DNA from: a virus | Virus record (IMG/VR): IMGVR_UViG_3300033142_001157 | Span: 1-40,386 of that record | Length of the DNA stretch: 40,386 nt | Reading direction: 5' to 3' (one strand) | Translations under genes and position numbers: made by a program | In this document: positions 24 through 40,386 of the stretch, one piece after another | Numbering within the stretch: the stretch's first letter is position 1 | Layout: every line of letters starts with the position of its first letter | Notes under the pieces: generated by a model | What the model was told of the DNA's origin: nothing | What the model saw: only the letters and a program-made list of their open reading frames with translations | The model's database searches: none

Positions 24-1856
24 ATGACAGATAGTTGTAATACTCTCGCTAATAATGAACACAAGCGATTGAATGTTATCGTTGATACGAAAACTGGAGA
101 GCTATTGAGTAAGCCTACCTGCTCGTACAGATATTACACACAGCTCATGGAAAATTACCGCAGTGGTATCAAAGCACTTGGTTTTAAGCATCATGCAATA
201 GAGCGCCATATAAAAGGGTTCCTGCGTAAATATGGTGCTAAAAATAAAGAGTTGGCCAAAAAATTAGACCCTTCTTTACCGATTGAACAGCTCAGAGATA
301 ATGTGATTTTATTACGAGCAGATACTGTCACAGGTTCAGAATTCCGCAGTGATTTGTTATCCCTAAAAATTGAGCATCATGCGTTTTATATGTTTGAACC
401 CAAAGGTGCTGTAAAAGATTGGATACGCGATGATGACAAAAAACAACTCAACAAAAAATTACACAGTCAAATTCTGGTTAATCCTGACTGGGTAAAAAGT
501 CTCGCTAACGAACTTTTAACGAAGAAATCACCATCGACCAGTGATCTATGTATTGGCATAGCAATAGCCACTGGACGACGACTAACAGAAATAATGAAAA
601 CAGCAAAGTTAAAGGTTGTTGATGATGAAACGCTATTATTTAGTGGTCAACTGAAAACTAAGAACAGACATCTGTTTGAAGATATTTCATCTTATAAGAT
701 CCCTTCGATGATAAAAGCCGATATAGTTGTTAAAGCATTGAATCAATTGAGAAAGGAGACAGGTAAGGACTTGCTAAAATACAATGATGTGCTTGGTGAG
801 CCTGTTGAATGTACTGTTGCCGATGGCGATGTAAAAGACTATGACCACAATAGAGCTGTACAGAAAAAATATGAAAGTACAATTAACCGAGCCGTTCGTT
901 CATTATTGCAAAATGGTAATTTCAGCCTGAAAGCCTGCCGTGCTTTATATACAGAGGTCACTTACGAGGATCACGCTAAAGATGGTGAGGCTCGTTCAGC
1001 ATATCGACACCGAGTGCTGGGGCACTCATTAATAGAAACACAATTGCACTACGAGTCTTTTAAAATAGATAGAACGATTAAAAGCATTAAACTGGTTGAG
1101 AAAGAAAACACTGAAAAAAACTCAGACCAACAGCAAGCGCTGGTGGATTACCTTACGTTAGCTGACTCAATTGTAAATGGCTACGCTCGAGCGCCTAAAA
1201 TTGCCATCATGCATTCATGGCTTAAAAACGAGGTGAGTAATGGCTTGTTGCTGGAACAAATAACTCCGTCGTATATTCGTCGACATTGCCTGATTGACGG
1301 AAAACAACTAAACCTTAATACAATTAAAAAATATGTTGAGGAGTTTATAAAATTAAGCCAATACACTCCACCAAAACCTAAAGCTAAAAAACCTGAAAGC
1401 AAAAAAGCGCGTGAAATTTTAGAGCTTGAAGAAAAAATCGAAGAAATGCAGTGCAGAGTTACCGATATTTATGACGAACGCGAGGAGCTGGACGACGAAC
1501 TCATGCAACTCAAAGAACGCATAGAAGAAATTGAGGAGGAAAGCGAAGAGCTAGAACTTGAACAGGACTCTATCAATGAAGAACTTGAAGAAATGCAATT
1601 CAAACTTGCTGAACTTGAAACGGAGTTAGAGGAAGAACAGGCCGAAGCTGAAAAAGATAAAACTAAAGAGCCTGAGCTACAATGGCCAGATGCCGATGAG
1701 ATTGAAGTCCAGGCTAAAAAAGATGGAAAAATGTGGCATGTTTGGTCTCATGTGAATGGGCAAACATTTGAACAATGGTGTGGTGGTCGCAAAGCATTAG
1801 CGATTAAAGAGTTACGCAACTACTACCAAAAGTCCATTGAAAAGTCAGTCGACTAA
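24..1856 (+). CDS. telN: Protelomerase (telomere resolvase), TelN-like
   Basis: A 610-residue tyrosine-recombinase-like enzyme that cuts a palindromic telomere site and rejoins the strands as covalently closed hairpins, keeping the prophage linear. The catalytic set is visible: ATGRRLTE gives R185/R186, QLKTKN gives K211, CRALYT gives R306, VLGH gives H334, and QLHYESF gives the nucleophile Y343. From memory, TelK has R275, K300, H416 and Y425; the R-K spacing of 25 and H-Y spacing of 9 match exactly. Residues about 455-560 are a very acidic, Glu-rich coiled coil, followed by a Trp-rich C-terminal part. The length fits TelN/TelK (about 630-640). Only 23 bases precede the ATG in the window, so the promoter is not visible. 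The location at the left edge, next to where a telomere should lie, fits N15 gene order. Very likely correct; ordinary integrase is excluded by size and context. Confidence 0.95.
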   Translation: MTDSCNTLANNEHKRLNVIVDTKTGELLSKPTCSYRYYTQLMENYRSGIKALGFKHHAIERHIKGFLRKYGAKNKELAKKLDPSLPIEQLRDNVILLRADTVTGSEFRSDLLSLKIEHHAFYMFEPKGAVKDWIRDDDKKQLNKKLHSQILVNPDWVKSLANELLTKKSPSTSDLCIGIAIATGRRLTEIMKTAKLKVVDDETLLFSGQLKTKNRHLFEDISSYKIPSMIKADIVVKALNQLRKETGKDLLKYNDVLGEPVECTVADGDVKDYDHNRAVQKKYESTINRAVRSLLQNGNFSLKACRALYTEVTYEDHAKDGEARSAYRHRVLGHSLIETQLHYESFKIDRTIKSIKLVEKENTEKNSDQQQALVDYLTLADSIVNGYARAPKIAIMHSWLKNEVSNGLLLEQITPSYIRRHCLIDGKQLNLNTIKKYVEEFIKLSQYTPPKPKAKKPESKKAREILELEEKIEEMQCRVTDIYDEREELDDELMQLKERIEEIEEESEELELEQDSINEELEEMQFKLAELETELEEEQAEAEKDKTKEPELQWPDADEIEVQAKKDGKMWHVWSHVNGQTFEQWCGGRKALAIKELRNYYQKSIEKSVD

Positions 1857-23803: not shown

Positions 23804-24540
23804 GCGAGCTAGAAAACGGTAGTGTGCTGCCTGATAACCGCAGCTTATTTGAGCGTGGTTTAGAGATAGCATTTACCCAGCTGCTCTATGAGATAGACAA
23901 TCCTTATCCGCAACTATTAAATCCCAAACAAACCAATCAACCTGCCTTGCCATATTTAGCGCAAGACAAAGGTGTGACGGAATGGGACGCGAACGCACCC
24001 GAGAGCGAGCAACGGCAAACCGTGGCGAACGCTTGGCAGGTTCGCAGGCTGGCAGGTACAAACAAGGGGTTAACCCTTGCAATGGACTCACTTGAATACG
24101 ATGCAGAGGTTACACCTTGGTATCAAATGACACCGCAAGGCCAACCCTATCATTTTGAAATAGTGGCATGGAAACGGCACAACGCACCGATTAATCAAGA
24201 TGTTGTGCATCGCATGATCACTAATATTGAAGATTCAAAAAGTGAGCGAGACACGTACGAGTTAATTTTAGCCTTTGGTGTTGAAACGGGCTTAGGTGTA
24301 TCGGCAGCCTATGATAGAGGCATCACTATTTTTGATGAGTCGTATCAGGGTGACATTGTGAGTGCGCCCATTGTGAGTGCAAATTTTCAGGCAGCAGGGG
24401 CTATTTATCATGCCACTGTTACCGACGACAACGCAGATAGCATTTTGCCCGACCTAACCGCCACTGGTGGCACCATTTGCATGGCAGGGGCACAGCGCAT
24501 CTATTTATTTACTGATTTTTCTCCAGGAGCAACAACATGA
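23800..24540 (+). CDS. Tail protein gpI-like
   Basis: 246 residues. LLPYLAQDKGV-like segment (ALPYLAQDKGVTEWD), then RQTVANAWQVRRLAGTNKGL, are typical of P2 gpI, the baseplate protein that connects to the fibre gene H. The N-terminal half is best conserved; the C-terminal part (SAPIVSANFQAAGAIYHATV) is a less certain beta-rich extension. The stop overlaps the start of the next gene (ATGA). Confidence 0.9.
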   Translation: MSELENGSVLPDNRSLFERGLEIAFTQLLYEIDNPYPQLLNPKQTNQPALPYLAQDKGVTEWDANAPESEQRQTVANAWQVRRLAGTNKGLTLAMDSLEYDAEVTPWYQMTPQGQPYHFEIVAWKRHNAPINQDVVHRMITNIEDSKSERDTYELILAFGVETGLGVSAAYDRGITIFDESYQGDIVSAPIVSANFQAAGAIYHATVTDDNADSILPDLTATGGTICMAGAQRIYLFTDFSPGATT

Positions 24541-25076
24541 GTGAGCCTCGTGTTCAGTTTACCAATGCTGGTTTAGCTGAATTAATTAGCGCAAAGAATA
24601 TCGGGATCAAGGCTGCTATTACTCATATTGCAGCAGGTGATAAAAGTTACACACCTCTAGTTACACAAACCGCTTTAGTGAATGAAAAGCAACGAGCGGC
24701 TATTGTCGACTATGAAGAGATGAGTCAAACCTCGCTCCGCATGGGGGCTAAATTCACAGGCACATTAGAATATGAAGTGCGTGAAATTGGCTTTTATTTA
24801 GAGTCGGGTACGTTGTTAGCAGTGTATTCAGTACCGAATACTTTGCTGACATATAAATCGGCTAATAGTAGCTGGATTCAAAAATTCACCTTAGATATTT
24901 CTCCATTACCTACGGATAGCGTCACCGTTGTCGTCGGTACCGAAAATATTAATTTAATGATCTCAGAGGAGATCGCCACGTCATCTGCTGCGTTTATCGG
25001 AGCGCAAGCTGTTTGTGTGCGGCAGATTAAACAACAACTTATTATTGGCGAAAAATTACGAAAATTAGGAGTGTGA
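24537..25076 (+). CDS. Tail-fibre N-terminal (DUF3751-type) protein
   Basis: 179 residues. VQFTNAGLAELISAKNIGIK and AAITHIAAGDKSYTP are the standard beginning of P2-like fibres (gpH, DUF3751), the part that docks to the baseplate. Here it is a separate protein that stops just before the retroelement target, rather than running into a long fibre shaft. The C-terminal 35 residues are helical. It probably forms the adaptor on which the variable receptor-binding protein at 25078 is mounted. This is inferred from adjacency. Confidence 0.8.
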   Translation: MSEPRVQFTNAGLAELISAKNIGIKAAITHIAAGDKSYTPLVTQTALVNEKQRAAIVDYEEMSQTSLRMGAKFTGTLEYEVREIGFYLESGTLLAVYSVPNTLLTYKSANSSWIQKFTLDISPLPTDSVTVVVGTENINLMISEEIATSSAAFIGAQAVCVRQIKQQLIIGEKLRKLGV

Positions 25077-25077
25077 T

Positions 25078-26331
25078 ATGGGCTTAGAGCAAAGAATTAC
25101 AGATATGGAAACGGCGTCATTACAGCAAACGAAGGCGTCACAGGATTTAGCAGCAGAAGTCTCAGGAATGATCGGAGCTATCGACAAAAAAGCAGATGAT
25201 GCAATCTCCCGCGCTGAAGCAGACTTTAACAGCAAGACTGTTGAGTTAACAGCGCACTCAATAGAAGGCCATAAAAAAGCAATTGAAGATGCGTCTGGTG
25301 GCAGATGCACAATCCTTATTGACAGCCAGGGCAACCCCAACATAATGGTGAGAATTCCTCGCTTCAATTATGAAGATATTAACGCTCAAATACTCGCCAA
25401 GACGGGTGTTGATTTGCAGTTGGGCACAGGTGTACCGACAATGTTCTCATCAAACGGCGTAATTCGCGGAGAGGTTTACATCGCCAAGTACCTCGCTAGC
25501 TCTGGCCAAAATGGCGGGTGCGCAGTGGTCGGAGGCGTGCAGCCGCGAACCTCTGTAAATTACGATATGGCAAAGGCACTTTGCACGAACAAAGGCGCTG
25601 GGTGGCACATGATGTCAATTCATGAATGGTCAGCTATTGCACTCTGGTCACTTGCAAACGAAACTGTTCCGCGCGGAAACACAAATTACGGTCGTTCGCA
25701 CGAAAACAAAATAGAAACCGCACGACGCTATGACAACGGCATGCCTGGCGACACCAGTGGCACAGGGCGCACAGACACAGGAAAAGGGCCATTAACCTGG
25801 GCGCATGACTATTCAGCGTGGGGCATAAGTGATTTAGTAGGCAACGTGTGGGAATGGATAGATCAGATGACGCTAGATAACGGGCAGGTGATCACAACGC
25901 TAGATAATGACCCAGGCATTGCAGAGTCGAACTGGCACAAACATCCTGCTTATTTTGACTCTGCGTCTGACAGTCAAAGCGGCACGGGTAATATTGGCTC
26001 GCCAATCTTGCACAACGCAGTCACTAAGCGCAACGGACCAATAAACGAAGACGGCTATGACTATCCGTACATGCATAATCCACACTTCGCTGCCGTCGGA
26101 AAATCTCTGCAGTATTCGCCGTCCGAGCTGCTTCGACGCCTGCTAATTGAATCAGCGTCAGCGACAACAGTAGGCGGTGGCGTGTGGGCGAGAAACTACG
26201 GCTACCGTATGCCGATCCGTGGTGGCGGCTGGAGCAATGGGTCTCACGCAGGCTTGGGCGCTCTCAACCTCAGCTACGCCCGTAGCAATGCGCACAGTAG
26301 CATCGGTTTTCGTCCCGCTTTCTTTGGGTAG
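25078..26331 (+). CDS. DGR target protein: variable tail-fibre tip
   Basis: 417 residues with AGGAG before ATG. Residues 1-60 are a coiled coil (LQQTKASQDLAAEVSGMIG). From about 75 a beta-rich linker leads to an FGE-sulfatase/C-type-lectin fold (residues about 150-417) with the family motif GNVWEW at 255-260 and the terminal block MPIRGGG...IGFRPAFFG. The last 40 residues (375-414) are the variable repeat. By comparison with the template, the diversified positions are Y376, G384, S386, H390, S399, Y400, H406 and S408. It is expected to be the receptor-binding tip, as Mtd is in Bordetella phage BPP-1. It takes the place of the usual P2 fibre tip and chaperone. Confidence 0.92.
   Translation: MGLEQRITDMETASLQQTKASQDLAAEVSGMIGAIDKKADDAISRAEADFNSKTVELTAHSIEGHKKAIEDASGGRCTILIDSQGNPNIMVRIPRFNYEDINAQILAKTGVDLQLGTGVPTMFSSNGVIRGEVYIAKYLASSGQNGGCAVVGGVQPRTSVNYDMAKALCTNKGAGWHMMSIHEWSAIALWSLANETVPRGNTNYGRSHENKIETARRYDNGMPGDTSGTGRTDTGKGPLTWAHDYSAWGISDLVGNVWEWIDQMTLDNGQVITTLDNDPGIAESNWHKHPAYFDSASDSQSGTGNIGSPILHNAVTKRNGPINEDGYDYPYMHNPHFAAVGKSLQYSPSELLRRLLIESASATTVGGGVWARNYGYRMPIRGGGWSNGSHAGLGALNLSYARSNAHSSIGFRPAFFG
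26201..26319 (+). repeat. DGR variable repeat (VR)
   Basis: 119 bases at the 3' end of the target gene, aligned without gaps to TR at +555. Ten mismatches, all where TR has A: changes to C, T or G in codons that are mainly AAC in TR. The last 17 bases (TCGGTTTTCGTCCCGCT) lack A and are identical in both copies, as expected for the initiation-of-homing segment. Confidence 0.97.
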
Positions 26332-26351
26332 TGGCCACTGCGTCTTGCTTG

Positions 26352-26367
26352 CCGCGCGGTAGCGCGG
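26352..26367 (+). other. DGR hairpin downstream of VR
   Basis: Perfect stem CCGCGC/GCGCGG with tetraloop GGTA, 32 bases after VR. Target-site hairpins of this size with a four-base loop (often GRNA) mark DGR recipient genes and raise retrohoming efficiency. The loop here fits G-R-N-A. Confidence 0.8.
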
Positions 26368-26392
26368 ACATATCAACAAAGGAGTAAAGCAA

Positions 26393-26749
26393 TTGACAGC
26401 CCTTGTAATTGAAGAAAAATGCAGGGGCATGCTCCTGTACGGTTATCAAGCCATAACGCATTTCCCAAAAAGCGAGCGCCATGTGCTTGGCGCAGAAATC
26501 AGGATTTCAATGCTGTCGCTTCAGCGACTTATCGTTACAGCATTTAAACGTTATCACAAAAAGACCACGCTGACCGATCTGGACATAGAGCTTGCGGTTC
26601 TCAAACGACAAGTTAGGTTGGCAAAAGACCTGCGCTACCTCAATATTAAAAAATATCAAATATGGATAGAGCAGCTTGTAGAGCTTGGCAGGATGATCGG
26701 TGGCTGGATAAAATCAGTAAAAACAAAAAACAAGGCTGGCGCATTATGA
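26393..26749 (+). CDS. avd: Accessory variability determinant (Avd)
   Basis: 118 residues from TTG 26393, supported by AAGGAG eight bases upstream and no later good start. Highly helical and basic: EKCRGMLLYGYQAITHFPKS, LQRLIVTAFKRYHKK, DIELAVLKRQVRLAKDL and QIWIEQLVELGRMIGGW. This is the four-helix-bundle Avd pattern (related to the 23S rRNA intervening-sequence protein family). Avd forms a barrel that binds the RT and template RNA and is needed for adenine mutagenesis. Its stop (TGA 26747-26749) overlaps an in-frame ATG of the RT frame, and the template repeat begins seven bases later. Confidence 0.88.
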   Translation: MTALVIEEKCRGMLLYGYQAITHFPKSERHVLGAEIRISMLSLQRLIVTAFKRYHKKTTLTDLDIELAVLKRQVRLAKDLRYLNIKKYQIWIEQLVELGRMIGGWIKSVKTKNKAGAL

Positions 26750-28029
26750 ATGTGCGAAACCGTATGCCGATCCGTGGTGGCAACTGGAACAATGGGTCTA
26801 ACGCAGGCTTGGGCGCTCTCAACCTCAACAACGCCCGTAGCAATGCGAACAGTAACATCGGTTTTCGTCCCGCTCTTGAAAATGCGAGAAACAACCACCC
26901 CAAGGGGTGCTGTCGGTGCAGTCTTGAAAAGGATGTGCCAGCCTCAGCAATCGCTGAAACACAAGCAAAAATACAGCCCATTGATGCGTCAACGGGCTGC
27001 ACATTTGAAAAAATATACGACTTTGAAAATATACTCTCAGCCGCGTATTCGTGCAGAAAAGGGAAAACAACAGCGACAACCACTTTGGATTTTTTTGATA
27101 ATCTCGAAGAAAATATAGTGCAAATTCAAAATGAATTAATGTGGGACATGTATCAAGCGTCAGACTATACCCATTTTTATGTCTTTGAGCCAAAGCGCCG
27201 CTTAATCTCAGCTCCTGCATTTAAGGATAGGGTAGTTCACCGCGCAATTTACAATGCGCTAGAACCACTTTTTGACGCTCGCTACATATACGATTCTTAT
27301 GCATGCAGGAGAAACAAAGGGGCGCACAAAGGCGCTAACAGAGCGCAAGGTTTTATCAGGAAGGTAGACAAGTCACACGGCAAGGCGTTTGCGCTGAAAG
27401 CCGATATTAGCCGTTATTTCAGCAGTATTGACCACTACATTTTGACGTCGATTATTGACAGCAAGATAGCATGCAGTAGAACTAAGTCACTACTGGGCTA
27501 TATAATCAACAGCAGTCCGACTGAGATATTTGGCGTTGGCATACCGCTTGGAAATTTGACTAGCCAGTTGTTTGCAAACATATATTTGCATGAGCTAGAT
27601 TTTTTTGTAAAACACACCCTAAAAGTACGCAATTACGTGCGCTACATGGATGATTTTGTGATTATTCATCACGATAAGCGACAATTGCAGCAATGGCGTA
27701 TTGATATAGAGGGATTTTTAAACAAAACCTTGAGACTAAAAACTAACAGCAAAACGCAAGTATTTCCTGTTGCTAGGAAAAATGGCAGGGCACTGGACTT
27801 CCTTGGCTACAGGATTTATTCAACGCACAGACTGCTAAGAAAAAGCAGCGTCAAGCGAATAAAGTCAAAGATAAAAAAATACAGAGCGCTGTACGCAAGA
27901 GGCGAGATCAACAGGGAAGATATACATCAAAAAATACAATCTTGGTGTGGGCACGCCAGTCATGCCAACACCTACAACTTAAAACATTTCTTATTCGCAG
28001 AGCCGTTCAGGAGGCAGGATGACATTTAG
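26746..28029 (+). CDS. DGR reverse transcriptase
   Basis: 427 residues if ATG 26746 is used; about 364 if GTG 26935 is used. The conserved RT starts at about base 27004 (FEKIYDFENILSAAY). Motifs: EPKRRLISAPAFKDRVVHRA, ALKADISRYFSSID, the DGR-specific motif 4 IPLGNLTSQLFAN (SQ rather than SP), catalytic RYMDDF (27640-27657) and the DFLGYRI / THRLLRKSSVKR end closely resembling Bordetella Brt. It copies TR RNA with errors at adenine, and the cDNA replaces VR. ATG 26746 overlaps the avd stop and would translate TR into the protein N-terminus, which is unusual. GTG 26935 has a ribosome site only one or two bases away. The start therefore remains open. Confidence 0.95.
   Translation: MNVRNRMPIRGGNWNNGSNAGLGALNLNNARSNANSNIGFRPALENARNNHPKGCCRCSLEKDVPASAIAETQAKIQPIDASTGCTFEKIYDFENILSAAYSCRKGKTTATTTLDFFDNLEENIVQIQNELMWDMYQASDYTHFYVFEPKRRLISAPAFKDRVVHRAIYNALEPLFDARYIYDSYACRRNKGAHKGANRAQGFIRKVDKSHGKAFALKADISRYFSSIDHYILTSIIDSKIACSRTKSLLGYIINSSPTEIFGVGIPLGNLTSQLFANIYLHELDFFVKHTLKVRNYVRYMDDFVIIHHDKRQLQQWRIDIEGFLNKTLRLKTNSKTQVFPVARKNGRALDFLGYRIYSTHRLLRKSSVKRIKSKIKKYRALYARGEINREDIHQKIQSWCGHASHANTYNLKHFLFAEPFRRQDDI
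26756..26874 (+). repeat. DGR template repeat (TR)
   Basis: 119 bases matching VR. It carries nine AAC and two AAT codons in the reading frame used by VR, the codon choice that gives maximum diversity (up to 15 residues and no stop for AAC). Eight of nine AAC codons differ in VR. It lies between avd and the conserved RT domain, and it is open in the RT frame. Confidence 0.97.
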
Positions 28030-28291
28030 CTACATACACAAAACAAAACACCACACAGATACATCACCCGCATACATGCAGTCAATAGGTATGTCAGCAG
28101 AAGAGATTGAATCAGTGCTGGCGCAGAAAGCGTTTGAACTCGGGCAAAACGTAGACCTACGAAAAATAACATACGCACGAGAGTCAGACCCACTTTACAT
28201 GGAATGGCAATTCGACAAAACACCAGAATCAGAGCAAGCCTGGCGTGATAAAGTTGCGGAAATTAAAGCACGCTATCCGTTGTCAGTATAA
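28019..28291 (+). CDS. Small tail-associated hypothetical protein
   Basis: 90 residues, AGGAGG ahead of the ATG, overlapping the RT by 11 bases. The C-terminal part (RESDPLYMEWQFDKTPESEQ, then WRDKVAEIKARYP) resembles the short conserved end found in small proteins encoded after phage tail fibres. It might assist fibre folding or assembly, replacing gpG, whose slot it fills in the P2 gene order. Function inferred from position. Confidence 0.55.
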   Translation: MTFSYIHKTKHHTDTSPAYMQSIGMSAEEIESVLAQKAFELGQNVDLRKITYARESDPLYMEWQFDKTPESEQAWRDKVAEIKARYPLSV

Positions 28292-39041: not shown

Positions 39042-39305
39042 TTAGTCTTCTAAATGGTACTTACCTTTACCACTGTCGTACTTATCAAATAAATCAGTTA
39101 GCGCCTCAATAACAAATTGCTTTACAGGCACATTGTCTAATGAATTTGCGCGCATGTTATGTAAACGACGATGGTAACTTGCTGGTATTTCAACAGGTAA
39201 GCGTTTCATTACTTCATCTAAGTCATCACGAACGACAGCAGCCAAAGCTTTTGCTTTGTCATCCCGTTGCCCTGACTTTTTAGCTGATAGTTTCACATCA
39301 CGCAT
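39042..39305 (-). CDS. parB: Partition DNA-binding protein, ribbon-helix-helix type
   Basis: 87 residues overlapping parA by eight bases. Basic flexible N-terminus (MRDVKLSAKKSGQRDDKAKA), then a strand plus two helices (PVEIPASYHRRLHNMRANSL, VKQFVIEALTDLFDKY) of the ribbon-helix-helix fold. This is the ParG/Omega-like partner used with short ParA proteins. It would bind centromere sites and repress the parA promoter. The dispersed CACAAAARCACA motif or the AACTGTACC iterons are candidate binding sites. Function from context. Confidence 0.72.
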   Translation of the reverse strand: MRDVKLSAKKSGQRDDKAKALAAVVRDDLDEVMKRLPVEIPASYHRRLHNMRANSLDNVPVKQFVIEALTDLFDKYDSGKGKYHLED

Positions 39306-39936
39306 TGATAAACCCCTTTAACTCTTTGACTAACATTTTAATTTCAAATCTTGCTTTATGCTCGGCTGGCAATTCTACTACTGAGCCACCCCATTTGGCC
39401 GTGTTGGCATAATCCACCTTTTGCGTAGTGCCATTGGCAAAAATAGGCAATTCATATCCTTCTAATGCGCTCATCACTTCACCGCTCAGTCGAGTGTTTT
39501 TAATTGCTCGAGACACAATAAAAGCACCCTGTGGATAGCCGTCAGTTACCTCTTGTCGAGCTTTAAGAAGCTCAACTAAGTCACTACATGCCCAAATGTC
39601 ATAAGGGCTTGGTTGCACAGGAATAAGCACAAGGTCTGCGGCTCTCACTGCTGCGGCTGCTAATTCGCTGACCTGTGGTGCGCCATCTATCACCACCCAG
39701 TCATATTCCCGTGCAATTTTGGGCAAGTCTCTTGAGATTGATTTTCCCATACGTACAACTGGGCATAAGTCATCACCTTCGCGAGCGTCAGCCCAGTCAG
39801 ATGCAGAGCCTTGTGGGTCGAGGTCAACCAACAATGTAGTTTCACCTTGGCTATGTAAGAAACTGGCTAAGTTTGTGCTGATGGTTGTTTTGCCAGATCC
39901 CCCTTTTTGATTGAGTACCGCTATTACTTTCGGCAT
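39298..39936 (-). CDS. parA: ParA-type partition ATPase
   Basis: 212 residues from ATG 39934-39936 (AGGAG upstream); the frame extended to 40041 runs through the promoter and is not used. Deviant Walker A KGGSGKTT near residue 10, DLDPQGSASDW, Walker B WVVIDGAP and the PVQPSPYDIWACSDL block are typical of small ParA proteins lacking an N-terminal HTH. It moves plasmid copies apart using a partner bound to centromeres. With no HTH, repression of its promoter falls to the small partner protein. Confidence 0.94.
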   Translation of the reverse strand: MPKVIAVLNQKGGSGKTTISTNLASFLHSQGETTLLVDLDPQGSASDWADAREGDDLCPVVRMGKSISRDLPKIAREYDWVVIDGAPQVSELAAAAVRAADLVLIPVQPSPYDIWACSDLVELLKARQEVTDGYPQGAFIVSRAIKNTRLSGEVMSALEGYELPIFANGTTQKVDYANTAKWGGSVVELPAEHKARFEIKMLVKELKGFINA

Positions 39937-39985
39937 TGTTTTGTCTCCTAGTCTGTTGTGCCACATTGGCCTATTTAATATATCT

Positions 39986-40018
39986 TTAAATGTGCTTTTG
40001 TGCAAATGTTTATTTGTG
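39986..40018 (-). repeat. Dispersed CACAAAARCACA motif, copy 6 (parA promoter)
   Basis: Minus strand ACAAATAAACATTTGCACA followed by AAAGCACATTTAA. It contains both the 18-base identity with the repA-leader copy and the 15-base identity with copy 3. It lies 50-80 bases before parA, so it may be both operator and centromere. Confidence 0.75.
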
Positions 40019-40130
40019 TGTTTTGTGTTAATCGCAAGCAAAAGAGCTAATCCTTACCGTTATTTACTTTTACTTCCTATAAAACAATGGTTTATGTGAT
40101 GTTGTAGTGTTTACAATAAAGAAAGGATAT

Positions 40131-40386
40131 AAGTGTACCCATGGCTTTTTATATGCGCTTCATGCGTTTTGTATGCACCTTATTGTTCGTAGGTATCATT
40201 TAGGTGTGTTGATCAATAGCGATGTTTAAAAGGCCTGTTTAACTACTTATATTGCCATTATGAAGAATAGCTATGTGTAATACATTTATAAATAGAAAAC
40301 ACAAGTTAACTGTACCCACCACCAAACAACAAACAAACAAAAAGGTATAGATAACTGTACCCGACACAATAAAGCACAACTGTACC
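40131..40386 (+). repeat. Right-end AACTGTACC iterons
   Basis: AAGTGTACCC (40131), TTAACTGTACCC (40306), TAACTGTACCC (40352) and CAACTGTACC (40377-40386, cut by the window end). The last three are spaced 45 and 26 bases apart and lie in AT-rich, gene-free DNA (40040-40386). They may be telomere-proximal sites for RepA, TelN or the partition protein. The array may continue past the window. Confidence 0.55.

Follow-up and report, generated by a model that had tools for sequence, protein, structure and literature searches.

The DGR (diversity-generating retroelement) of the Vibrio harveyi phage VHML (NC_004456) is present in the DGR literature (PMC3240598; PMC6199706), and the hairpin of its target gene is included in Guo et al., 2011 (PMC3240598), where DGR hairpins have a stem of 7-10 bp and a loop with the consensus GRNA. 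The deposited record of a second Vibrio phage, VP58.5 (NC_027981), carries the annotations 'Avd protein of DGR' and 'Reverse transcriptase'. In the Pseudoalteromonas phages ACA1 and ACA2, TR is reported to be translated as an N-terminal extension of the reverse transcriptase (RT), the target is termed the antireceptor, and a 90-aa ORF is mentioned as well (PMC10612066). DiGReF structural group 3 is defined by a TR that overlaps either end, 5' or 3', of the RT ORF (PMC3521204). In the Bordetella phage BPP-1, the DGR prototype, the folded spacer brings in the RT-Avd complex and provides the adenine from which priming takes place (PMC12875486).

The DNA analysed here (the window) is a single virus record from IMG/VR, 40,386 bases long, and it contains a complete DGR at 25078-28029, as the first-pass annotation had proposed: an FGE/C-type-lectin target with VR, a hairpin with a GRNA loop, Avd, TR, and a DGR-type RT are all found. 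The explanation that is almost certainly correct is a VHML-type DGR diversifying the receptor-binding tail-fibre tip of a temperate, contractile-tailed phage, most likely a linear plasmid. The features on which this reading draws are as follows.

24-1856, plus strand: protelomerase (linear phage-plasmid context); PF16684, E 7e-30, above cut-off
24537-25076, plus strand: P2 gpH-like tail-fibre N-terminal domain (baseplate attachment); PF12571, E 2e-8; phrog_3737, E 1e-76
25078-26331, plus strand: DGR target, variable protein of 417 aa; PF03781, PHROG 2889; AlphaFold2 model matching TaqVP (5vf4)
26204-26319, plus strand: VR, firm extent (with 26201 as a possible start); each of its 8 substitutions falls at a TR adenine
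26352-26367, plus strand: hairpin/cruciform CCGCGC-GGTA-GCGCGG, 32 nt after VR; the loop fits the GRNA consensus (PMC3240598)
26393-26749, plus strand: avd, accessory variability determinant, 118 aa, TTG start; PF22296, E 1e-31; NF033474
26746-28029, plus strand: DGR RT of 427 aa, including an N-terminal leader encoded by TR; phrog_1423, E 1e-163; start conserved in relatives
26759-26874, plus strand: TR, in frame with RT and read in the frame that VR has in the target
26875-27003, plus strand: 3' spacer of the template RNA, inside the RT coding sequence; its covarying RNA structure is conserved
28019-28291, plus strand: 90-aa ORF accompanying the DGR; phrog_5714
39298-40041, minus strand: ParA-like partition ATPase (plasmid prophage context); phrog_164, PF13614

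The genes are ordered baseplate J-like, gpI homologue, gpH-like fibre N-terminus, target, avd, TR/RT, 90-aa ORF, and sheath, and the N-terminal domain of the fibre and its variable tip are separate genes. In P2, the slot where the target sits here holds the fibre C-terminus and its chaperone, and the earlier placement of the element in the P2 fibre-tip slot is borne out by its position after the gpI homologue and the gpH-like N-terminus and before the sheath. A hairpin with a GRNA loop is found here and in most close relatives; the perfect stem in the window has 6 bp, one below the published range, and an Rfam search of the spacer and the hairpin returned nothing relevant. Avd is recognised by the NCBIfam equivalog NF033474 (DivGenRetAVD) with 106 bits against a cut-off of 80, and phmmer gave no match for it in the PDB. 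The RT carries the motifs LGNLTSQ (at 27547) and YMDD (at 27643), groups with the RTs of known DGR phages, and has 8ub7 as its best PDB match. Homologues of the 90-aa ORF lie 3' of RT in most close relatives, and the ORF itself, which has no match in Pfam or NCBIfam, may belong to the cassette or may serve as a fibre chaperone.

VR and TR lie at an offset of 555 and form a firm ungapped repeat of 116 nt, the bounds of which are also returned by neutral scoring. The eight mismatches in this repeat all fall at TR adenines (A>G in five cases, A>C in two, and A>T in one), against none at the 89 other positions, and when the repeat is lengthened to the 119 nt of the first-pass annotation (from 26201 in VR and 26756 in TR) the count becomes 10/10, the two added sites lying at its fuzzy edge. 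Random placement of the mismatches would give such a result with P = 3.5e-6 (8/8, 116 nt) or 1.9e-7 (10/10, 119 nt), and the claim that the repeat is direct evidence of past adenine mutagenesis can be upheld on these adenine-only differences. Nine of the 10 changes affect AAC codons of TR and replace Asn with Gly, Ser, His, or Tyr. Within the window there is neither a further copy of TR nor a second target, the next best alignment reaching 50-51 of 116 positions. TR and VR are identical over at least their last 15 nt, where the boundary is seen with no visible IMH/IMH* difference, whereas in BPP-1 a difference between IMH and IMH* marks the recipient.

Variation of VR among related genomes, to which the first-pass annotation had pointed as a test, is of the same kind. 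The first scoring of VR against TR in the relatives penalised non-adenine mismatches, and the pairwise comparison of VRs is therefore the fair test. The VRs of ACA1 and ACA2 differ at 18/26 TR adenines and at 2/91 other bases, with 0/600 differences in the upstream part of the target and 0/900 in RT. Similarly, those of the plasmids pAMBAS45 and p0908 (L097 and L098) differ at 18/26 TR adenines and 2/91 other bases, with 1/900 in RT, and those of another pair (L042 and L044) at 18/22 TR adenines and 3/88 other bases; more diverged pairs of relatives display the same TR-adenine bias in VR. Cassettes that are otherwise nearly identical are, on this comparison of sequences, evidence of DGR activity in the family and not in the window phage itself. 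The occurrence of the pAMBAS45 cassette in Alteromonas and of the p0908 cassette in Vibrio amounts to a natural experiment across host genera.

The AlphaFold2 model of the target, built with 30 aligned relatives, has a mean pLDDT of 89.9 and consists of an N-terminal helix (residues 3-72), read as a coiled coil, followed by one domain of the FGE/C-type-lectin type. The predicted fold is that of a DGR variable protein. The top PDB match of the model, with 35% identity, is TaqVP of Thermus aquaticus (5vf4; Z 49.7 and rmsd 1.7 for 347 residues), after which come FGE-fold enzymes, with PvdO as the next match, a Treponema variable protein (2y3c), and Mtd, at Z 12-14. The match to TaqVP begins at model residue 57, and the target of the window differs from TaqVP in that its lectin domain is preceded by a coiled coil, about 70 residues long, at the N-terminus. 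VR codes for the C-terminal strands of the target, a placement read from the sequence, as in known DGR targets.

Three other explanations were weighed against a functional tip-diversifying element. That the repeat arose by chance or as a mis-assembled duplication, a concern for any single IMG/VR record, can be given practically no weight, since the same architecture is present in more than 15 independent relatives, sequenced isolates included, and the placement of the mismatches argues against it in addition. A relic DGR, with parts intact in sequence but no longer homing and with a VR that records one old event, is unlikely. It would agree with the small share of changed adenines (8-10 of the 27-29 in TR), which is compatible with a single old homing event, and with the broken RT frames that occur in the group, as in the deposited RT and Avd frames of VHML and in the RT frameshift of proACA1-A (PMC10612066); however, the frames of RT, Avd, and the target are intact in the window, as are TR and the hairpin, and an old relic would be expected to show some non-adenine differences between VR and TR, of which there are none over 116 nt. 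Slightly less probable again is a target that serves as another surface protein or as a decoy and not as the receptor-binding tip. PF03781 is also a family of enzymes, and the enzyme PvdO ranks next after TaqVP in the PDB, but the match to TaqVP stands far above the enzymes (Z 49.7 vs 13.7), the gene lies directly 3' of the gpH-like fibre N-terminus in the tail operon, and the homologue in the ACA phages is annotated as an antireceptor, whose VR divergence accompanies a lack of cross-infection (PMC10612066). The role in host range that had been suggested for the element is supported by these related phages, and diversification of the fibre tip is retained as the preferred reading.

TR and RT had been described as contiguous, which is correct as to their presence; the two are not merely adjacent, for TR lies inside the RT frame. 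The open frame that holds RT runs from 26662 and takes in the whole of TR. The open frame by itself was rejected as evidence, because the brt frame of BPP-1 is also open far upstream, and reliance was placed instead on the codon pattern, on conservation of the start, and on the absence of other starts. In those close relatives that were checked, an ATG equivalent to that at 26746, which overlaps the avd stop as ATGA just upstream of TR, is conserved, and in VP58.5 and four other relatives (L008, L010, L011, and L012) there is no other ATG, GTG, or TTG ahead of the conserved RT domain. Translation of RT most likely starts at 26746, judging from this conservation. In a quick tree of RTs, the clade of the window comprises 22 rows (SH-aLRT 99), of which 21 are open through TR, the exception being VHML with the broken frames of its record. 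The resulting layout falls under the definition of DiGReF group 3.

The spacer shows two kinds of constraint. In the RT frame, the spacer at 26877-27003 has a pS of 0.47 against a pN of 0.21, while in the two remaining frames pS and pN are roughly the same, which indicates coding selection in the RT frame only. Synonymous divergence is 0.51 in TR and 0.47 in the spacer, well under the 0.82 of the RT core, as would follow from an additional constraint on the RNA itself. The predicted fold of the spacer RNA has 32 pairs, of which 10 show two-sided changes, and its 53 two-sided cells compare with 18.9 in shuffled alignments (0/500 reach the observed value) and with 3-11 when the pairing is slid, the slid control being lenient since the fold was derived from the same alignment and the shuffling taking no account of relatedness. 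An invariant TGAAAAGGATG lies within the spacer at 26925-26935. A covariance model of the spacer (R1) matches directly 3' of TR in about 20 more distant DGRs, many of them with non-coding spacers, with scores that are raised by model positions 1-15, which are the end of TR itself. R1 has no match in BPP-1, and identity of the clade's spacer structure with that of BPP-1 is accordingly unsupported, the A at position 56 in both being a lead only. The leader of the RT (residues 1-83) has a pLDDT below 50 in the AlphaFold2 model, with no fold predicted. By analogy, we infer that the spacer element known from BPP-1 is embedded here in coding sequence. A tentative extension is that the whole template RNA of this clade (TR and the structured spacer) codes for a disordered RT leader and so could carry lectin code, RT code, and RNA fold at once, and that translation through the template might compete with its reverse transcription, so that a built-in switch would set whether RT or cDNA is made.

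With BPP-1 as the model for the priming, copying, and homing steps, the avd-TR-RT transcript would serve as the mRNA for Avd and RT and also as the template, and a complex of RT and Avd would bind the structured spacer after TR. TR would then be copied into cDNA with errors at adenines, and this cDNA would take the place of VR in the target gene, with the 3' end common to both repeats and the hairpin downstream as guides. The changed residues would, as in BPP-1, alter the choice of receptor.

The phage was held by the first-pass annotation to be a linear phage-plasmid of the telN type, and the gene content agrees with this: the genes that characterise telomere phages, namely those for the protelomerase, a RepA-like large primase-helicase (phrog_4913), and the ParA-like ATPase, are all present and support a linear phage-plasmid, and the window also codes for a CI-like repressor and a Rha-like regulator. 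From its genes, the phage is temperate and contractile-tailed, with P2-like tail genes, and most likely replicates as a linear plasmid. The record, which may be incomplete, shows neither a telRL palindrome nor a paired telomere sequence at its ends, and linearity is read from the genes; the first and last 200 nt have a complementarity score of 14, which is at chance level (mean 10.9 and maximum 17 in shuffled sequences). The record begins 23 nt before the protelomerase gene. Four other protelomerase contigs (L089, L090, L091, and L092) likewise start just upstream of this gene, the distance in all five being about 20-250 nt, and these start points suggest that assemblies break at the telomere palindrome. 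All four contigs, some of which are fragments, lack both this RT and this target. Adjoining the protelomerase gene, at 2188-2880, is a regulator of the PAS-LuxR type (PF08448 and PF00196), which is reminiscent of VqmA, the quorum-sensing receptor of phage VP882. At the right end (40304-40386), upstream of the ParA-like gene, the motif AACTGTACC(C) occurs three times, and the copies are possible operator or partition sites.

Among known systems, VP58.5 is a linear plasmid prophage with a protelomerase, and its order of gpJ, gpI, fibre N-terminus, FGE-type target, avd, TR in the RT frame, RT, 90-aa ORF, and sheath is that of the window. In tblastn, VP58.5 has the RT at 72% identity and VHML at 66%, with 66-67% for the target; the RT core of VP58.5 is 74% identical and its target 66%, and the elements of VP58.5 and the window both have the ATGA start and a hairpin with a GGTA loop, which in VP58.5 lies about 33 nt after VR. 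Outside the cassette, VP58.5 is a distant relative, with amino acid identities of 30% for the sheath, 27% for gpI, and 47% for the protelomerase. VHML has the same cassette in the same slot, with a target that is 67% identical, and a protelomerase; its deposited avd and RT frames (L052, 5700-7400) are broken in several places and include one ambiguous base, whereas those of the window are intact, and sequencing error and decay cannot be told apart as the source of the breaks. Megablast of the 22-kb tail half found no match to VHML or VP58.5, nucleotide similarity falls below that required for the genus Vhmlvirus, and gpI and sheath are 27-30% identical; by these sequence measures, the window phage is not a close relative of VHML. 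The first-pass annotation had considered a DGR in a telN-type phage-plasmid perhaps undescribed, and this was rejected because VHML and VP58.5 each have a protelomerase and this same DGR. A DGR in a telomere phage is thus not new, the same cassette having been published in such relatives, and a further record of 44.8 kb (L003) has the protelomerase and this DGR together; the window adds one more telomere phage to a short list with a tail-fibre DGR.

The cassette is also found in other genetic settings. ACA1 and ACA2 (PMC10612066) have it as in the window, but they are integrating P2-like phages with an integrase and no protelomerase match. The plasmids pAMBAS45 and p0908 carry it beside phage tail genes with 73% RT identity, and they are circular records; an IMG/VR record equal in length to pAMBAS45 (G004) has no match to PF16684. 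The cassette thus moves between phages and plasmids of differing kinds, most of them from marine Gammaproteobacteria. BPP-1 shares the order of target, VR, avd, TR, spacer, and RT and has a homologous RT; the fold of its target Mtd matches only distantly (Z about 12.5), and its brt starts after the spacer, with TR not read in the frame of VR, unlike in the window. A layout with TR within RT is already published, both as DiGReF group 3 (PMC3521204) and for the ACA phages (PMC10612066). What the comparison of sequences adds is evidence for a 3' spacer that appears to be doubly constrained, by selection on the encoded protein and by a covarying RNA structure that is shared with DGRs in which the spacer is non-coding. 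In a clade with the template RNA and its spacer inside the RT gene, RT expression and template supply would not easily be uncoupled, and the embedded template under both constraints provides, as a by-product, a testable point on the mechanism of DGRs.
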